NCBI GenBank assembly: GCA_014193315.1
Contig: BJHS01000021.1
Location: 1 to 32,337 of the forward strand
DNA length: 32,337 nt
Source: Verrucomicrobiota bacterium
GTDB lineage: Bacteria > Verrucomicrobiota > Verrucomicrobiia > Opitutales > UBA953
Reading direction: 5' to 3'
Under the pieces are notes generated by a model, which was not told where the DNA came from, ran no database searches, and saw only the letters and a list, made by a program, of their open reading frames with translations. This document shows positions 2,340 to 14,853 of the stretch, in pieces (the first letter of the stretch is position 1; each line of letters opens with the position of its first letter). Both the position numbers and the translations under genes were made by a program.

Positions 2340-4139
2340 GTGTCCCTCGATCACATCCGTAACTTTTGCATCATCGCACACGTCGACCACGGCAAGACGA
2401 CGCTGTCCGACCGCCTGCTTGAGCACACGAAGACGATTGAAAAGCGCCAGATGAAGGAGCAGCTGCTCGATGCGATGGATCTCGAACGCGAGAAGGGCAT
2501 CACAATCAAGTGCCACCCGGTGACGATGAACTTCACCGCGCCCGATGGTAAGCAGTACATCCTCAATCTCATCGACACCCCGGGGCACGTCGACTTCGCC
2601 TACGAGGTCTCCCGCTCCCTGGCCGCCTGCGAGGGCGCCGTCCTACTGATCGACGCCTCCCAAGGGGTCGAAGCCCAGACCGTCGCCAATGCCACGCTGG
2701 CGATGAACCAGGGTCTCGAGATCGTGCCGGTCATCAACAAGGTCGACCTCCCGAGCGCCCGTCCCGAGGAGGCCCGCCGTCAGGTCGAGGACATCCTCAC
2801 CATCCCCGCCCAAGATGCCGTGCTGGCTTCCGGTAAGTCTGGGATCGGCATCGACGAGATCTTTGCCGCGATCATCAAGCGAGTCCCGCCGCCCCGCTGG
2901 TCCGAATACCCCCACCACCGCGCGCTGGTCTTCGACTCCCTCTTCGACTCCTACAAGGGCGTGATCAGTTACGTCCGCGTGTTTTCCGGCACCTTCAAGG
3001 CCGGTCAGACGATTGAACTGATGTTCAATGGTGTCCGCTCCGTGATCAAGGAAGTGGGAATCTTCGCCCCGAAGATGAAGCCGCAGGACGAACTGGGCCC
3101 TGGCACTGTGGGCTACATCGTCATCAATATCCGCGAGGTGGCCGACGTGAAGGTGGGCGATACGATTACCCTCGCGGCCGACCCCGCGAAGGAGCCGGTT
3201 CCGGGCTTCAAGGAAGTCCGCCCGATGGTCTTCAGCGGCATCTACCCGCTCGACACGGCCGACTACGAGAAGCTGAAGACGTCGCTCTCGAAGCTGGCGA
3301 TCAACGATTCGTCCCTGACCTACACCGCGGAGAGCTCGACGGCCCTCGGCTTTGGCTTCCGCTGCGGTTTCCTCGGGTTGCTGCACATGGAAATCGTCCA
3401 GGAGCGGCTGCGCCGCGAGTACGACCTCGATATCCTTTCCACCTACCCGTCCGTCGTCTACAAGGTGTTCACCGCCGACGGGGTGGTGCACATCCTCGAC
3501 AACCCGGTGATGATGCCCGATGCCTCCATGATCGAGCACATCGAGGAGCCGACGATCCGCGCCCACATCCATATCCCGGGCACGGCGATCGGCGACATGC
3601 TGACGCTTGTCCAGGAGAAGCGGGGTGTCTGTGAACGCACCGAGACGATCGATGGCGATCGCGTGGTGCTGGTCTGCCTCCTCCCGCTCAACGAGATCCT
3701 GGTCGACTTCAACGACCGGATGAAGTCCATCACTCGTGGTTACGGTTCGATGGATTACGAGCTGGGCGAGTACGTGACATCCGATCTGGTGAAGATGGAC
3801 ATCCGCGTGAACGAGGAGCCCGTCGACGCCTTTTCCTCGATCGTGCACGCCTCCAAGGCCGAGGGCCGGGGTCGTGCGCTGTGCGAGAAGCTGAAGGACC
3901 TCCTGCCGCGCCAGCTTTTCAAGATCGCGATTCAGGCGGCCATCGGGTCCAAGGTCATCGCCCGAGAAACCATCGGGTCGGTGGGTAAGGACGTGACCGC
4001 GAAGTGCTACGGTGGTGACATCTCGCGTAAGCGCAAACTCCTGGACAAGCAGAAGGAGGGCAAGAAGCGGATGAAGCAGATCGGTAAGGTCGACATCCCG
4101 CAGGAGGCCTTCATCAAGATTCTGAAGAACGAGGACTAA
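2340..4139 (+). CDS. lepA: Elongation factor 4 (LepA), ribosome back-translocation GTPase
   Basis: LepA/EF4 is a ribosome-bound GTPase related to EF-G that affects translocation and ribosome assembly under stress. The 599-residue length is standard. Visible GTPase motifs are AHVDHGKT (residues 13-20), DTPGH (79-83) and NKVD (about 132-135). The switch region contains EREKGITI. Downstream are domain II, the EF-G-like domains ([20 protein letters not shown]) and the LepA-specific C-terminal tail with [25 protein letters not shown] in two overlapping parts. The start is GTG at 2340, chosen because it places [13 protein letters not shown] at the usual distance from the N-terminus. The 25 bases just before it (2315-2339) are all C or T, with no Shine-Dalgarno sequence. 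LepB follows 65 bases downstream, the same order as the lepA-lepB operon of E. coli. Confidence 0.97.
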
Positions 4140-5563: not shown

Positions 5564-5690
5564 AGGGTCAGGGTGGGGCCCGGAGCAAGGTTGGCTGGTC
5601 GGGGGAAGCGTCACTCTTGGGCGGCTTTGTCTCGGTTGGGGCGGTCTGCTGTCCGTCTTGCCTATCCCTGCCCCTGACCCTAGCCCTAGC
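5564..5690. repeat. Inverted repeat and CCCTAGCCCTAGC word before the GNAT gene
   Basis: AGGGTCAGGG at 5564-5573, four bases after the lepB stop, is the exact reverse complement of 5672-5681. The right arm runs into the 13-base word CCCTAGCCCTAGC at 5678-5690, which ends 13 bases before the ATG of the next gene. The same word, in the same orientation relative to the following gene, appears upstream of the ABC-F gene and of alaS. No T-tract is present. Function unknown. Confidence 0.6.
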
Positions 5691-5703
5691 TCCACTTCGC
5701 CTC

Positions 5704-6375
5704 ATGTCCTGGACCCTCTACCGCCACTACAAGGGCAACCACTACCTGCGGTTGGGCGTGGGCGCGCATTCGGAGGACCTCGCGCCCCACGTGGTCTACC
5801 GTTGTCTCTATGATAATCCCGAGGCGCGGACGTGGATCCGCCCGCAGGGAATGTTCGAAGAGACATTGGAGGATGGCCGGCCGCGTTTTACGCCAGTCGC
5901 TCGGGTGCGACTCGTCCAGCCCGAGGATCACGCGACGGTCCTGGCTTTTGGTTACGACGCCTGGGGCGAAGGCAAGACGTTGCCGGAGTTCATCGCCGGC
6001 TACGACCAGAGTCGGAATCACCTGCGCGGCACGCGTTACCTCTTGGAGACCTTGGAGAGCGTGCCCGTCGCGGGGCTGAACACCTTGCGTTTCCGCCAAG
6101 GCCTGATGGGGCTCGCCTCCGTCGCGACAGATCCCGCGCATCGCGGCAAGGGCCATTCCGCGCTGCTCGTGCGGGCCGCGATGGAGTTGTTGCGTTTCCT
6201 GCACGGCGATAACCGTTTCCTGCTCTTCTCCGAGGTCCCGCCGTCCGTCTACGAACGCCACGGCTTCCGCGTGCTCCCGCCGGAGCATCAGCGCTTCCTG
6301 CCTTCGGTGGCCATGGCCACCGGCGAGGCGCCGCTCTCCGCCGAGGAAGCCGAGCCCCTGAGTAATTATTTCTGA
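5704..6375 (+). CDS. DUF1653-GNAT acetyltransferase fusion
   Basis: Two domains can be recognised in this 223-residue protein. Residues 1-55 match the small DUF1653 fold: YRHYKGNHYLRLGVGAHSED, then HVVYRCLYDNPEARTWIRP and an F(E)E end, a domain of unknown function usually found alone. Residues 65-215 are a GNAT N-acyltransferase, with the acetyl-CoA pyrophosphate loop R147-G-K-G150 after VATDPAH and the C-terminal block SVYERHGFRVLPPEHQRFLP. GNAT enzymes transfer an acetyl group to an amine; the acceptor here is unknown. An in-frame ATG exists at 5617, but it would encode a stretch lying in the repeat-rich spacer, so 5704 is preferred because it begins exactly at DUF1653. The TGA stop (6373-6375) abuts the first REP-like palindrome, which may also serve as its transcript end. 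Confidence 0.82.
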   Translation: MSWTLYRHYKGNHYLRLGVGAHSEDLAPHVVYRCLYDNPEARTWIRPQGMFEETLEDGRPRFTPVARVRLVQPEDHATVLAFGYDAWGEGKTLPEFIAGYDQSRNHLRGTRYLLETLESVPVAGLNTLRFRQGLMGLASVATDPAHRGKGHSALLVRAAMELLRFLHGDNRFLLFSEVPPSVYERHGFRVLPPEHQRFLPSVAMATGEAPLSAEEAEPLSNYF

Positions 6376-6376
6376 A

Positions 6377-6471
6377 AAGGGGTCAGGCCGTTTGCGGTCT
6401 CCCCTGTTAGTTTAAACGGCATTTTATTGCCTCCAAACTAACACCCAAGCCCACTAACGGCCTGACCCCTT
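6377..6471. repeat. REP-like nested palindrome, copy 1
   Basis: The outer arms AAGGGGTCAGGCCGTT (6377-6392) and 6456-6471 are exact reverse complements. The inner arms GTTAGTTT (6406-6413) and AAACTAAC (6435-6442) are also exact. Copy 2 at 7443-7539 has the same plan and the same arm sequences but a different centre. The left end directly follows the TGA stop of the GNAT gene. The right arm encodes the last residues and the TAG stop of the transposase gene on the minus strand. The layout is that of a REP/BIME-type element mobilised by the adjoining Y1 transposase. Confidence 0.88.
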
Positions 6472-7374
6472 GGGCGAAGCCGTCCAGATCAGTCGTCTCA
6501 CATTGCTGGCCGAGCCCATCGCCAATCGTTGCGCCAGCCAGCTGGAATGTGCAGGACATCGTTGCCTCACCTTAAGCGCCACGGCCAACTTCACGGCATC
6601 GCTGGCCGAGCGCCCGCCCATCTCTTCGCGCGTCAGGCCCGCTGCTTGCAGGACCTCATCCAAGATCGCATCCCAGCGGGCCCGTTCTTCGTCGATTAGT
6701 TCGGATCGTCCCTTTGCCGTCCGTAATGCCGGCCCTTTGGCTTCGCTCATGGACCCGCGGCGCCGAGCGGCCACTGCGCCAAATAGCTCGGCTTCGGTCA
6801 GTGGACGTTGATCGGATACCAAGCTCAGTCGCAGACGAGTCTCATAAGCCAGCCATCCTTCCGGTGAGTCCTTGAGTCCGTGCAGCGACTCGAGCCCGAC
6901 CCCCAAGGCAAGCAAACCCCTGTGGGCGGGCTGGCGAAGCGACCGATAACTTGTCCAAGGGTACTGTGACAAGAGCTCCAGCGAAGTCATCCCAGCCCGC
7001 ACCGGATTCAGGTGCACATAGTCCATGCGCGCAGCGGCCAGCGGACCGGCGGGGCTGTGGTCCGCCCGGTACCTGGACTGGAAGACATGCCCAATAGAGC
7101 CTCGGAAGGCCTTGTGTTTATTGGCGAAGTCGGACTGCAAGGCATGCATGCCCACGTCCAGGTTGCCTCGGGGCGTCGTCAGGAGCAGGTGGAAGTGATT
7201 GCTCATGATCGCGTAGGCGAACAACTCCCAACCATGGAGTTCGACGGTCCTGAAAAGTGCTTCGAGGAAAAGCCCCTTGGTCGCGTCGTTGGCGAAGATC
7301 GCCGCGCCGAGTTCGGCGCGATTGTAGACGTGATAGACGCCTTGGTTGGAAAGATGCCGACGACGGCGGGCCAT
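6454..7374 (-). CDS. REP-associated tyrosine transposase (RAYT, Y1/HUH family)
   Basis: RAYT proteins are single-strand DNA endonuclease/transposases related to the IS200/IS605 TnpA. They bind and cut REP palindromes. The 306-residue product shows the HUH metal motif NHFHLLL (His60, His62), the block GHVFQSRYRAD with the likely catalytic Tyr102, and the family signature YVHLNPVRAG. The region after about residue 170 is an extended C-terminal domain, as in many RAYTs, ending in a helix-turn-helix-like stretch (WLAQRLAMGSASNVRRL). The start MARRRRHLSNQGVYHVYNR at 7374 matches the family better than the in-frame ATG 18 bases upstream. The stop lies inside palindrome copy 1, whose arm encodes the final PKGSGR. 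The gene lies between menD (same strand, upstream) and the convergent GNAT gene. All visible catalytic residues are present, so it looks intact. Confidence 0.92.
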   Translation of the reverse strand: MARRRRHLSNQGVYHVYNRAELGAAIFANDATKGLFLEALFRTVELHGWELFAYAIMSNHFHLLLTTPRGNLDVGMHALQSDFANKHKAFRGSIGHVFQSRYRADHSPAGPLAAARMDYVHLNPVRAGMTSLELLSQYPWTSYRSLRQPAHRGLLALGVGLESLHGLKDSPEGWLAYETRLRLSLVSDQRPLTEAELFGAVAARRRGSMSEAKGPALRTAKGRSELIDEERARWDAILDEVLQAAGLTREEMGGRSASDAVKLAVALKVRQRCPAHSSWLAQRLAMGSASNVRRLIWTASPKGSGR

Positions 7375-7442
7375 CCTTGGTTCCTTGGGCAAATCTCGTT
7401 GCTGGGCTAATGTGAAGATACCCCGCGGGTAAATACTCAGCC

Positions 7443-7539
7443 AAAGGGGTCAGGCCGTTCGTGGTTGGGGGTGTTAGTTTAGAGGCCTGAAAGTGGCTTT
7501 TAAACTAACAGGGCATGGGACGAACGGCCTGACCCCTTT
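7443..7539. repeat. REP-like nested palindrome, copy 2
   Basis: The outer arms are a perfect 19-base inverted repeat, AAAGGGGTCAGGCCGTTCG (7443-7461) against 7521-7539. The inner arms TGTTAGTTTA (7472-7481) and TAAACTAACA (7501-7510) are a perfect 10-base inverted repeat. The right end touches the TGA stop of menD (7540-7542, minus strand). Arms match copy 1, while the sequence between outer and inner arms differs. It lies in the leader of the transposase gene, about 70 bases before its start, so it could also act on transposase expression. Confidence 0.9.
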
Positions 7540-9249
7540 TCAGCGGAAAGACTTCAGGCGCCAGGCGGCATCGGCTTCGCGGTCGGTGCGGAACTCGATC
7601 ACGCGCACGCCTTTACCCCGGCGTTCGAGGTGGCGGGCGAGGCCGGCCCAGGTCTCAGCCAGGTCGTGCCGGACCCCATGGGCGGCGCAGAGTTTGCCGA
7701 GGTCGGCGGCCTGCGGGGTGCCCCAGAGCTGCTCGAAGTGTCGGGTTTCCTTCGCGACGGCGAGGTGGTTGAAGATGCCGCCGCCTTGGTTATTGATGAC
7801 GAGCACGGTGAGGTCGCCGGCATGGCCGTAGGCGGAGAGCAGGGCGTTGCTGTCGTGGAGGAAGGTGAGGTCGCCGCAAAGGAGCACGGTGCGGCGGCCG
7901 TCGAGCGAGGCGCCGAGCGCGGTGGAGACGGTGCCGTCGATGCCGTTGGCGCCGCGGTTACAGAGAATCTCCGGGCCCGGTCCGGCGGGGTGCGAAAACC
8001 ACTCGAGGTCGCGGATAGGCATGCTGCTGCCGATGAAGAGCCGGTCGTCCGGACCGAGGGCGGTCTCGAGCAGCGCGATGACGCGGCCTTCGAACGGCCA
8101 GTCGACCGCCAAGACCTTCTCCAGCCGACGCCCGGCCTTGGCCTGGGCTTTCTGCCAGTTTCGCAGGGTGGCGCTCATGGGGCGTGCGACCGCCTCGCCG
8201 CCCGGCGTCAGTGAACCATCCAAGCGCGTCCAGCGCCCGTGCGTCGCGTCGGTGTTCTCGCCCGGTCGTCCGACCAGCAGCGTCAGTGGGTCCCCTTGGC
8301 GAAGCCAAGCGCGTAGCGACTTGCTCGTCGGCAACGGGCCGATGGCCACGACGGCCTCGGGGGCCAGCGCCTTGGCCATTCGCTCGTCGCGCAGAATGAG
8401 GTCGTAGGCCGAGACCACCCGGCCGGTGCTGGCGAGGTCGCCCCGGAGGGTGCCAGCCCCGTCGGCCAGGATCGGCCAGCCGGTCAGTTGGGAAAGCTCG
8501 AGTAAGGCTTGGGCGCCTTCCGCCCGGTCGGCAAAGGCATGCGGGCCCACGACGATCGCCCCGCGCTCGGTCCGGGGAAGGAGGCTGGCCACCACCGCGG
8601 GGGTGAGTGTCGGCTGGACTTGGCCGGCGGCCGGCAAGGTGGTGAAGGCCTCGAGATCGAGCCATGTCGGGGTCTTGAAGCCCTTTTCGGCCTCGGAGGG
8701 CGGTAGAGGGTCCCGGAAGGGCAAATTGAGGTGTACCGGGCCAGCCAAGGGCCCTTGCGCCCGCTGCCAGCCGTCCACTAGCAACTGCCGCCAGTGCCGA
8801 AGGAGTTCGCTTCCCGTCCCGGGCACGGCCGCCTCGGCCGACCAGACGGGGAAAGCGCCGAAGAGCCCGTTCTGCGGGATGGTCTGGCCGGAGTGGCAAT
8901 CCCGGAGCTCCGGGGGGCGGTCGGCGGTCAGCACGAGCAGCGGGGTTCCGGACATCCGGGCCTCGACGACGGCGGGCAGGTAGTTGGCGCCCGCGGTGCC
9001 TGACGTGCAGAGTAGGGCCGCCGGCCGGCGGGTGGCCTTGGCGATACCCAGCGCGATGAATCCGGCGGACCGCTCGTCGAGCGCGACGGTGACCTTGAAT
9101 TCCCTGTGCGAAGCAAAGGCGAGGGCGAGGGGGGTCGAGCGCGAGCCCGGCGAGATCACCACGTGCGTCAGCCCGCAGCGACGGAGCGTGCACACGCCCA
9201 CGGCGCTCCAGAGGGCGTTCGTGTTCAGGAACCTGGGCGGTCGGGCCAT
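7540..9249 (-). CDS. menD: SEPHCHC synthase MenD (menaquinone biosynthesis)
   Basis: MenD is a thiamine-diphosphate enzyme that joins 2-oxoglutarate-derived succinic semialdehyde to isochorismate, the first committed step of menaquinone synthesis. At 569 residues it has normal length. Blocks seen in order are VISPGSRSTPLAL, the DERSAGFIALGIAKAT block with the catalytic Glu59, CTSGTAGANYLPAVVEA, LTADRPPELRDCHSGQTI, and near the C-terminus the ThDP/Mg region GDLTFLHDSNALL followed by INNQGGGIFNHL. The ATG at 9249 is followed by FLNTNALWSAV, the usual MenD start. No other men gene is nearby, so the pathway is scattered in this genome or this gene is on its own. The stop codon is immediately followed by palindrome copy 2. 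Confidence 0.94.
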   Translation of the reverse strand: MARPPRFLNTNALWSAVGVCTLRRCGLTHVVISPGSRSTPLALAFASHREFKVTVALDERSAGFIALGIAKATRRPAALLCTSGTAGANYLPAVVEARMSGTPLLVLTADRPPELRDCHSGQTIPQNGLFGAFPVWSAEAAVPGTGSELLRHWRQLLVDGWQRAQGPLAGPVHLNLPFRDPLPPSEAEKGFKTPTWLDLEAFTTLPAAGQVQPTLTPAVVASLLPRTERGAIVVGPHAFADRAEGAQALLELSQLTGWPILADGAGTLRGDLASTGRVVSAYDLILRDERMAKALAPEAVVAIGPLPTSKSLRAWLRQGDPLTLLVGRPGENTDATHGRWTRLDGSLTPGGEAVARPMSATLRNWQKAQAKAGRRLEKVLAVDWPFEGRVIALLETALGPDDRLFIGSSMPIRDLEWFSHPAGPGPEILCNRGANGIDGTVSTALGASLDGRRTVLLCGDLTFLHDSNALLSAYGHAGDLTVLVINNQGGGIFNHLAVAKETRHFEQLWGTPQAADLGKLCAAHGVRHDLAETWAGLARHLERRGKGVRVIEFRTDREADAAWRLKSFR

Positions 9250-14040: not shown

Positions 14041-14853
14041 TCAGCTCCACTTCAACTTGCTCCGGAGCACGTCGAAGTGGGTCAGGTTTTTGGGGCGGAG
14101 GAGGGCGAGCTGGACTTTGGCGGTACGGATGCCGAGGGGTAGCCGGCCTTGCGCCTCCAGCGTCGGGCGGCCGTCCACGGAGAGTCCGAGCTGGGCGCCG
14201 TCCTCACTGCTGATCTCGAGTTCGGTCTCGCCGTCGAAGATCACGGAGCGGTTGGAGAGGGTGTGGGCGCAGATCGGGGTCAGGACGATGACGGCGGCGG
14301 CGGGGTCGACGAGCGGGCCGCCGGCGGCTAGGTTATAAGCCGAGGTGCCCGTGGGCGTGGCGAGGATCAGGCCGTCGGCCCGGTACTCGTTCACGCGGGC
14401 ATCGTCGGCGCGCACGGCGAAGCGGCCCATGCGAAAGACGTCGCGCGTCTTCAGCACCACGTCGTTGAGCGCGAGGGTGAAGCTGCCGTCGGCGAAGCGG
14501 ACCTCGAGGAGGGCGCGGTTCTCGCGGCGAAAATCCCCGGCGAGGATGGAGCGGATCGAGGCGCCGACGTCCTCCTCGGGGTAGGCCGCGAGGAAGCCGA
14601 GTTTACCGCGGTTGATGCCAAAGAGCGGGACGCCTTCGAGGGCGGCTGGTTCGGCCACACCAAGGAAGGTGCCGTCGCCGCCGACCACGCAGCAGGCGTC
14701 GGCCCCGCGCAGGGAGGCTCGGTCGACCGGCCAGGCATCGGCGAGGGCCAGCTCAACGCCGGCTTCGCGGGTGGCTTCCTCCACCGCCCGGACGATGTCC
14801 TCGACACCGGACTTGGTGCGATTGACGACGAGCGCGAGACGGCGGATAGCCAT
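14041..14853 (-). CDS. nadK: NAD kinase
   Basis: NAD kinase phosphorylates NAD to NADP in the cytoplasm, using ATP or polyphosphate. The 270-residue product has the family landmarks: GGDGT (58-62) with the metal-binding Asp, FGINRGKLGFLA, the NE/D-type motif in LNDVVLK, and the strongly conserved GLILATPTGTSAYNLAAGGP, with the Asp of the RADG just before it. The C-terminal part SNRSVIFDGETELEI and LSVDG completes the all-beta domain. The ATG at 14853 begins MAIRRLALVVNRTK, with a normal distance to GGDGT. No Shine-Dalgarno is visible. The gene upstream on the same strand is an exported protein (14922-15641), 68 bases away, so they could share a transcript. Confidence 0.95.
   Translation of the reverse strand: MAIRRLALVVNRTKSGVEDIVRAVEEATREAGVELALADAWPVDRASLRGADACCVVGGDGTFLGVAEPAALEGVPLFGINRGKLGFLAAYPEEDVGASIRSILAGDFRRENRALLEVRFADGSFTLALNDVVLKTRDVFRMGRFAVRADDARVNEYRADGLILATPTGTSAYNLAAGGPLVDPAAAVIVLTPICAHTLSNRSVIFDGETELEISSEDGAQLGLSVDGRPTLEAQGRLPLGIRTAKVQLALLRPKNLTHFDVLRSKLKWS

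Follow-up and report, generated by a model that had tools for sequence, protein, structure and literature searches.

The 32,337-nucleotide stretch analysed here – the window, contig BJHS01000021.1 of a bacterium from the Verrucomicrobiota, order Opitutales – holds a single gene for a Y1 (HUH) transposase, enclosed by two nested palindromes. This arrangement is probably a TIRtron in which each terminal inverted repeat (TIR) has been doubled into a self-complementary structure about 95 bp long. Element, transposase and element together lie as one block between two host genes, a position that several species seem to have inherited, and single elements found elsewhere would represent its non-autonomous copies.

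The unit in the window and its transposase

A preliminary description of the window had already recognised the two nested palindromes around the gene (Table 1). It had given 16–19 bp for their outer and 8–10 bp for their inner arms; the nested arms are indeed there, with corrected lengths of 16–20 bp (outer) and 9–10 bp around TGTTAGTTT (inner). The string GGGGTCAG is present on both sides of the transposase gene, whose stop codon falls within the first element. Both elements, on either strand, fold with z values of −7.0 to −9.7, none of 200 shuffles being as good in each case. The 14-mer GGGGTCAGGCCGTT occurs exactly four times in the window, and a fifth match at 14276, with two mismatches, is at chance level (0.48 expected per shuffle at up to two mismatches).

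Table 1. Coordinates of the transposase unit, its parts and the adjoining host genes in the window
Feature	Position	Strand	Remarks
Complete unit, AAAA-GGGG...CCCC-TTTT	6375..7540		1166 bp
Nested palindrome 1 (element 1), downstream end of transposase unit	6377..6471		95 bp
Element 1 outer arm, left, AAGGGGTCAGGCCGTT	6377..6392	+	16 bp, perfect; partner 6456–6471
Element 1 inner arm, TGTTAGTTT	6405..6413	+	partner 6435–6443
Nested palindrome 2 (element 2), upstream end of transposase unit	7443..7539		97 bp
Element 2 outer arm, left	7443..7462	+	20 bp, perfect; partner 7520–7539
Element 2 inner arm, TGTTAGTTTA	7472..7481	+	partner 7501–7510
Y1 (HUH) transposase gene (P0001)	6454..7392	-	312 aa from TTG; in-frame ATG is the 7th codon
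NHFH (HUH) motif, residues 65–68	7189..7200	-	Asn and both His in 52/52 aligned rows
Tyr125 of YVHLNP	7018..7020	-	52/52 rows; catalytic Tyr by analogy
C-terminal helical domain, residues 224–312	6457..6723	-	weakly DnaA domain IV-like
Host gene left of insertion site, DUF1653 and GNAT	5617..6375	+	
Host gene right of insertion site, thiamine-pyrophosphate enzyme	7540..9249	-	presumably MenD

The protein, P0001, had been placed in the superfamily of RAYTs (tyrosine transposases associated with repetitive extragenic palindromic, or REP, sequences), an assignment that holds. It scores 54.5 bits against NCBIfam REP_Tyr_transpos (cut-off 80) and 18.3 bits against Pfam Y1_Tnp (cut-off 23), below the threshold in both cases; all 43 members of an alignment of its relatives match both profiles at E 0.01. 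The best solved fold for its AlphaFold2 model (predicted local distance difference test, pLDDT, 90.4) is the REP-bound TnpA-REP structure 4er8 (Foldseek E 3.1e-7; Z 15.0, 3.0 Å over 154 residues), and the IS200/IS605 structures IS608 and ISDra2 reach Z 8.4–11.2. The motifs of P0001 – NHFH, FQ and YVHLNP – are intact, with the catalytic residues in place, and strongly conserved: across 52 aligned rows N-H-[FY]-H, the F of FQ, the Tyr and the N of NP are invariant, the Q is found in 51 and the P in 43. With a dN/dS of 0.10–0.16 in ten of ten pairs compared, the gene is under strong purifying selection.

Residues 224–312 form a C-terminal domain of five predicted helices (pLDDT 79.8). The six best structural matches of its model by Z are all DnaA (5.8–6.7), other structures match weakly, no Foldseek match falls under E 0.001, and no Pfam helix-turn-helix (HTH) family is found in the 43 members at E 0.01. 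The model would agree weakly with the DnaA-like tail described for part of subclass 2.1 of the TnpA-Y1 transposases.

Further copies of the elements are present in the source genome (G000; 2.36 Mb in 44 contigs, 97% complete). The exact 14-mer occurs 13 times, against none for the reversed control; 12 of these occurrences make six pairs with arm starts 77 bp apart, and the 13th (C31:795) has, at equal distance, a one-mismatch arm as its partner. Altogether there are nine paired elements (C1:75440, C1:230007, C3:101482, the window's two, C31:793, C31:2223, C31:8511 and C34:3039), a count based on the exact two-arm pattern, a looser 14-mer search and the reading of individual places. Seven show the exact two-arm pattern and two (C31:795, C31:8511) an altered right arm; by type, seven resemble those of the window, and C31:8511 and C34:3039 belong to a sister subtype with GGCCGTACC outside and TGAACC inside. 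Places such as C25:10640, C34:4245 and C10:2588, where the left arm alone is well kept, were left out. At up to two mismatches to the 14-mer, 70 matches compare with 41 for the reversed control, chance dominating to the point that more decayed copies are indistinguishable. The transposase itself has one match in the genome, the only place where the Y1_Tnp profile also matches, below its cut-off.

Several other repeats lie near these elements. On C1, at about 229900–229940 (L032), there is a palindromic repeat of about 30 bp, GGGGCAGCACCGCGTGCTGCCC, for which a search of 12 relatives gave many matches at 90–100%; in contrast to the 95-bp elements, this repeat has the look of a genuine high-copy REP. 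Tandem repeats made of element-end letters and 10–20 bp of flank stand beside the element at four loci (L033 ~1450–1500 on C3; L204 ~500–560 on G219:C52; L038 ~3600–3640, C31c; L120 ~570–600) and recall clustered REPINs (paired REP sequences). The flanks of the sister-subtype elements (L036 ~1440–1500, L038 ~3640–3690) have in common an inverted repeat of about 45 bp that holds CGGGTCACGCTAAATGGGGCCAGTT, apparently a different repeat family. On C31 (L034 793–2317), two elements in inverted orientation enclose a gene of 352 aa that we take to be DUF1566-like and that is possibly a passenger. At this locus G199 has the gene and the first element only, and G219 has one element, the gene being absent from that place; only a short distance separates the outer flanks in G204 and G193, and the stretch fetched from these contains no GGGGTCAGG.

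Element design and distribution

Among the 62 distinct elements tabulated, 58 have 91–93 bp between GGGG and CCCC. The arms are kept while the centres vary, as had been proposed from the window's pair. The GGGG start of the outer arm is preceded by AAA, AAC, CAC, CAT, TAA and other triplets. Changes in the stems tend to be paired: in 49 aligned elements, with the structure drawn from the first row, 89% of stem cells are paired and 181 cells carry double changes (79 when shuffled, 20–68 with partners slid), and double changes affect eight of the nine inner-stem pairs.

Four to five letters tend to recur at the outer-arm tip and at the inner-arm base, and these differ between lineages; the combinations are TTAGT with TGTTAGT, CTCC with GCGCTCC, TACC with TGAACC or CGTAACT, and TTAC with TGATACT, while CTCC is also combined with TGTGACT, which it matches poorly. 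Agreement averages 3.0 of 4 letters across 56 distinct combinations, compared with 2.32 in 2000 shuffles (standard deviation 0.11, maximum 2.71). As only about eight subtypes stand behind these combinations, the match is suggestive of a letter code.

Ordinary intrinsic terminators or regulatory hairpins would also fold strongly and would be expected between genes, and the elements do lie between, or at the ends of, long reading frames. This explanation is nevertheless very improbable, given the near-fixed length and shared design of the elements, their recurrent association with one gene family and a precise presence/absence polymorphism (see below). Plain terminators were not favoured on account of the last two points, and a secondary terminator effect is possible.

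Searched as the exact pattern GGGGTCAGGCCG-N55..80-CGGCCTGACCCC, the elements occur in 32 of 79 genomes of the family, all 32 belonging to the window's genus (55 genomes; metagenome-assembled genomes, MAGs, of the Opitutales), and the reversed control gives none. The genus has 119 copies, 0–14 per genome, with 23 of its 55 genomes lacking any; the family's 24 genomes outside the genus have none. A stricter pattern, AAGGGGTCAGG-N45..75-CCTGACCCCTT, is found in two of 177 genomes of the order, both in the genus.

A scan of 84,980 named species genomes returned 109 stretches, and most of the 80 listed are, by their titles, from Opitutae, Opitutales, Opitutia or Verrucomicrobia MAGs. Among 15 loci that were read, those from the deltaproteobacterium UBA2409, a member of the Pirellulales, PL23a_bin.76, a Cephaloticoccus and two Opitutaceae have the outer arm without the nested inner stem. 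The earlier view that the system has an arm sequence of its own can thus be kept for the inner arm and dropped for the outer arm, GGGGTCAGGCCG, which is common to distant bacteria. Records named Sphingomonadaceae and Streptomycetaceae (L294, L300) contain elements of the genus's own type, and these contigs are presumably misbinned. Viral contigs gave no match to the exact pattern. The right flank of L126 (query ~321–410) holds a dispersed repeat of 50–90 bp with GGACAGCACGTGTTACTGTCC, which has matches in many genomes of the genus.

P0001 is matched in 22 of 79 family genomes (E 1e-5) and 39 of 177 order genomes (E 1e-15), and flanks were examined for 52 genes, 25 from the family and 27 from other families of the order; the weak partial family matches in G182, G184 and G185 and the locus-less row G236:C89 were left out of the flank set and tree. 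Wherever a family locus matched substantially (25 of 25), one or both sides carry a palindromic arm of 12 bp or more. Close relatives, at no less than 52% identity and including the window's own gene, have nested palindromes on both sides in 12 of 15 cases; the other three lie at contig ends and carry elements on the end that the contig shows. In the other families a palindromic arm is found once in 27 (L090), and 21 of the 27 have an inverted repeat with GGGTCA across the gene, 20 of them plain; six have neither, one of which (L091) starts near a contig end. A maximum-likelihood tree, built without the broken row of G198, splits the 24 family rows from the 27 others with support of 100/99. 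The simplest reading is that, within the order, single ends would have become doubled ends in one change.

A second Y1 branch exists in the same genus (L069, L070, L072, L062, L063, L071, L073, L074, L065). Its members are 32–38% identical to P0001 and have shorter hairpin ends, which mostly begin with GGGGTCAGAC but also with GGGGTCAGGC and similar strings; it sometimes shares a contig with the first branch (G231:C86, G236:C83).

Copy number follows the gene. Genomes with a close transposase have elements in 14 of 15 cases (mean 5.5, the two unit ends counted) and those without in 18 of 40 (mean 0.93; Fisher p 0.0016, Mann–Whitney p 1.4e-6), a comparison in which related genomes are treated as units though non-independent and in which MAG gaps can hide a gene; restricted to genomes at least 90% complete (7 versus 15), p is 0.003. 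With unit ends excluded, 13 of the 15 genomes still have elements (mean 3.7), the 18 of 40 being unchanged (Mann–Whitney p 0.00014, presence p 0.006); scoring three broken or truncated genes as absent as well gives means of 4.2 and 1.0 (p 0.0002). The preliminary description would have been contradicted by a genome without other arm copies or by arms equally common in genomes lacking the transposase: the source genome has nine elements, and the arms are not equally common, though some persist in those 18 genomes. From these counts and means, the elements outlast or escape the gene, yet their number tracks it.

Insertion sites and rival readings

The home site of the unit is the junction between the GNAT gene and the MenD-like gene. 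Of the 55 genomes of the genus, 48 match around it, most other two-flank loci holding a different 835–1095 bp between the genes; 11 genomes, G000 included, were compared in detail. Four of these (G000, G219, G193 and G225) have a whole unit, one (G231) a solitary element, and six are empty, with an identical tight junction and a 6-bp gap between anchors in each. In G000 the anchors are 1171 bp apart, 1165 bp more than in the empty sites and within 1 bp of the unit's length, and no direct repeat flanking this unit is seen by eye. The units of G219, G193 and G225 have 49–90 bp extra to the left relative to G000. In G231 a single element (212 bp) takes the place of the whole unit (1316 bp) present in its nearest tree neighbour, G193, the outer flanks being near-identical; this solitary element would have arisen by loss of the gene together with one end.

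In the transposase tree the four home-site genes group as a single clade (99/97), and the host-gene tree twice pairs an empty with a filled genome: G199 with G219 (99/98) and G198 with G225 (92/97). The home site is read as one old insertion followed by clean losses and by one loss that left a solitary element. The clean losses could equally well reflect replacement through recombination with an empty allele, and insertion may instead have occurred more than once at this place.

These sites also bear on the notion, part of the preliminary description, of a domesticated system. In its full form – a RAYT/REPIN pair with a host-serving transposase and elements kept for, say, transcript ends or chromosome structure – it would account for the single gene copy in G000, the strong purifying selection, the apparent descent at one site in four genomes and the position of the elements relative to long reading frames. 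The copy number is low and patchy, however, with 23 of the 55 genus genomes lacking an exact-pattern copy, six genomes have clean empty home sites, and the transposase is broken or truncated in G198, G207 and G235. Full domestication is unlikely, and the term domesticated is half supported: the single copy and the purifying selection speak for it, clean empty unit sites and a solitary insertion elsewhere against it.

That insertion was found at a second locus, which follows a gene that we read as DUF1080-like. Of its 13 loci, two (G211, G201) lack one anchor; among the 11 compared, seven have a solitary element and four are empty, and G208 and G215, outside this comparison, also look empty. 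Filled sites exceed three of the empty sites by 146–147 bp (G210, the remaining one, was anchored differently), and the inserted stretch consists of 21 bp, the 92-bp element, about 24 bp and a second copy of ACGCTCGCC. This 9-bp string is present once in the four empty sites and as a direct duplication in the filled ones, its two copies being exact in five genomes (G226, G212, G223, G194, G211) and differing by one to three letters in G116, G239 and G236. A 9-bp target duplication is not expected of a Y1 enzyme. Within the insertion, the sequences on either side of the element (CTCAGCCAAA / TTTGGCTGAG) are similar to what separates the gene from its upstream element in several units; the real boundaries of some elements may therefore lie about 20 bp outside the GGGG arms.

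The duplication does not seem to be general. Over 69 distinct elements, direct repeats in the flanks resemble those of shuffled pairings; there are seven 9-mer repeats, five of which are copies of one locus, against 0.9 expected (plus 2.7 8-mers and 0.8 longer). Target duplication as a rule was rejected on this survey, leaving a single-locus claim based on empty sites – one event, which could have a different origin. Elements C1a, C1b and C3 have no clean empty site among the relatives fetched, and a search for further empty sites mostly matched dispersed repeats, without a clean site. Element C31b is absent in G199, but about 20 bp of other sequence stand in its place, so its absence is not a precise loss.

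The 95-bp elements might instead be miniature inverted-repeat transposable elements (MITEs) belonging to another transposon, of the DDE type and with 9-bp duplications as its trace, so that the Y1 gene would lie between two of them by coincidence. The direct repeat at the sole solitary insertion with a clean empty site would fit, as would elements without a close Y1 gene in 18 genomes. We consider this unlikely, given that 12 of 15 close Y1 relatives have elements at both ends and the other three at the end visible in the contig, that 21 of 27 relatives from the order have GGGTCA inverted repeats, that copy number tracks the Y1 gene even without the unit ends, that the duplication is not general, and that the home site of G000, 1165 bp longer for a 1166-bp unit, shows no flanking direct repeat by eye. 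It is similarly doubtful that this is a Y1 branch whose doubled, code-bearing ends insert by staggered two-strand chemistry that leaves a 9-bp duplication, with the code as an exchangeable address between enzyme and element; if true, such insertion would contrast with the single-strand peel-and-paste of IS200/IS605.

In the TIRtron reading, which we prefer, the transposase would bind the folded palindrome on one strand, then cut and rejoin it with its HUH/Tyr site; such action on folded single strands is suggested by the fold and by the TnpA-REP and IS200/IS605 literature. It may read the constant outer arm together with a short lineage-specific code at the outer-stem tip and inner-stem base, code and enzyme changing together. 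Solitary elements could then arise in two ways, by loss from a unit, as proposed for G231, or by insertion of a lone element, as at the DUF1080-like locus.

Several points weigh against this reading, besides the 9-bp duplication and the elements in genomes without a close transposase. The two elements of the home unit are inverted in G000 but in direct orientation in G193. The one transposase of G236 stands between elements of different type, TACC upstream and CTCC downstream, so that the pairing of enzyme and code is not strict. Of the five covariation measures, two are no higher than in shuffled data, namely the pairs showing a double change (16 versus 15.0; 137 of 500 shuffles as high) and further pair types (33 versus 32.3; 230 of 500), and pairing in a third, short helix at the tip reaches only 43.5% of cells; all these counts ignore the kinship of elements, and the outer 12 pairs are uninformative because the search pattern prescribed them. 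No palindrome accompanies three weak, partial matches (L066–L068) from a different genus of the family. Finally, in the Pirellulales MAG L289 a Y1 stretch (1373–1765) 38% identical to P0001 (E 1e-22) is separated by about 80 bp from a GGGGTCAGGCCG palindrome of 90 bp (1202–1291), with a further CTGACCCC at 2308; doubled ends would thus extend beyond the family, having arisen elsewhere too or being more widely shared.

Comparison with known systems

The unit appears to belong to an established class of mobile DNA, within which it is a branch of distinctive character, suited to studying the joint change of elements and enzyme. TIRtrons were described from a limited genome set and have scarcely been followed up in the open-licence papers listed, two of which use the name TIRYT; the searches, covering for part of them the best-ranked matches, found no account of a RAYT, REPIN or TIRYT system in this lineage, and by their titles none of the papers listed for the arm strings deals with a bacterial repeat. 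The genus, of freshwater Opitutales, offers a natural series from plain repeats in relatives to doubled palindromes with several arm codes, and a home site with whole units, a solitary element and empty sites. Such a series could be used to test the passage from single repeats to REPIN-like doubles and the joint change in specificity of transposase and sites.

The preliminary description had seen a complete REP system here. Like REPINs and RAYTs, the elements have two inverted arms, a variable spacer and an adjoining Y1 gene (Bertels and Rainey 2011, PMC3116915; Nunvar 2010, PMC2817692). A REPIN GI doublet has 71 bp between its 16-mers (PMC3116915), and the six exact window-type pairs have 77 bp between arm starts; tandem copies with flanks, described for REPINs (PMC3116915, PMC2817692), are also seen at some of the present loci. 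The GT[AG]G hairpin foot of REP sequences is absent from all 62 distinct elements, GTTAG being found only inside the arms of one subtype, and the copy number usual for such systems (more than 100 per genome) is not reached, with nine elements here and 0–14 exact-pattern copies per genus genome; the 312-aa protein, moreover, has a C-terminal domain. For want of the GTAG foot and because copies are few, a canonical REP/RAYT system was rejected; it is the TIRYT/TIRtron branch that fits both the protein and the ends (PMC3733652, PMC6006769).

With the IS200/IS605 elements IS608 and ISDra2 the unit shares the Y1 HUH catalytic fold, the HUH and Tyr core and palindromic ends, and it differs in having a larger protein, palindromes that are nested and, at one site, a duplication of 9 bp. 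IS200/IS605 elements are said to insert without larger target duplications (PMC2817692); none is seen at the G000 home unit, and 9 bp are found at one solitary element.

The closest likeness is to TIRtrons and their transposases, the TIRYTs, named by Di Nocera et al. (2013) for Y1 genes between terminal inverted repeats with GGGGWSAS (PMC3733652). According to that paper, TIRs can form moderately abundant repeat families, some of them dimeric, double-palindromic or self-complementary, and GTAG repeats are mentioned for the verrucomicrobium O. terrae. Quentin et al. (2018) placed 20 of 26 TIRYTs in TnpA-Y1 subclass 2.1 and suggested that the two correspond (PMC6006769); the same paper gives, for this subclass, the motifs NH[YF]H, FQ and Y[IV]HLNP and a C-terminal HTH extension like Bac_DnaA_C, HTH_23 or HTH_28, with no REP-like structures alongside the genes. 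The window's unit has the Y1 gene and inverted repeats sharing GGGGWSAS, its nine self-complementary elements make a family of moderate abundance, P0001 carries the subclass 2.1 motifs, and the low copy number agrees as well (PMC3733652, PMC6006769). P0001 also has a C-terminal extension, for which a likeness to the HTH types is at most weakly suggested by the DnaA matches.

Contrary to the subclass 2.1 report (PMC6006769), nested palindromes stand beside the gene on both sides, and the system is therefore filed by its motifs as a variant of that subclass. From TIRtrons as described – the double palindromes of PMC3733652 being compared by text description – it would differ in that nested two-stem ends of near-fixed length are the rule among the close relatives of the window's gene, that both stems repeat a short code, that there are several subtypes, and that solitary copies occur for which empty sites are known.

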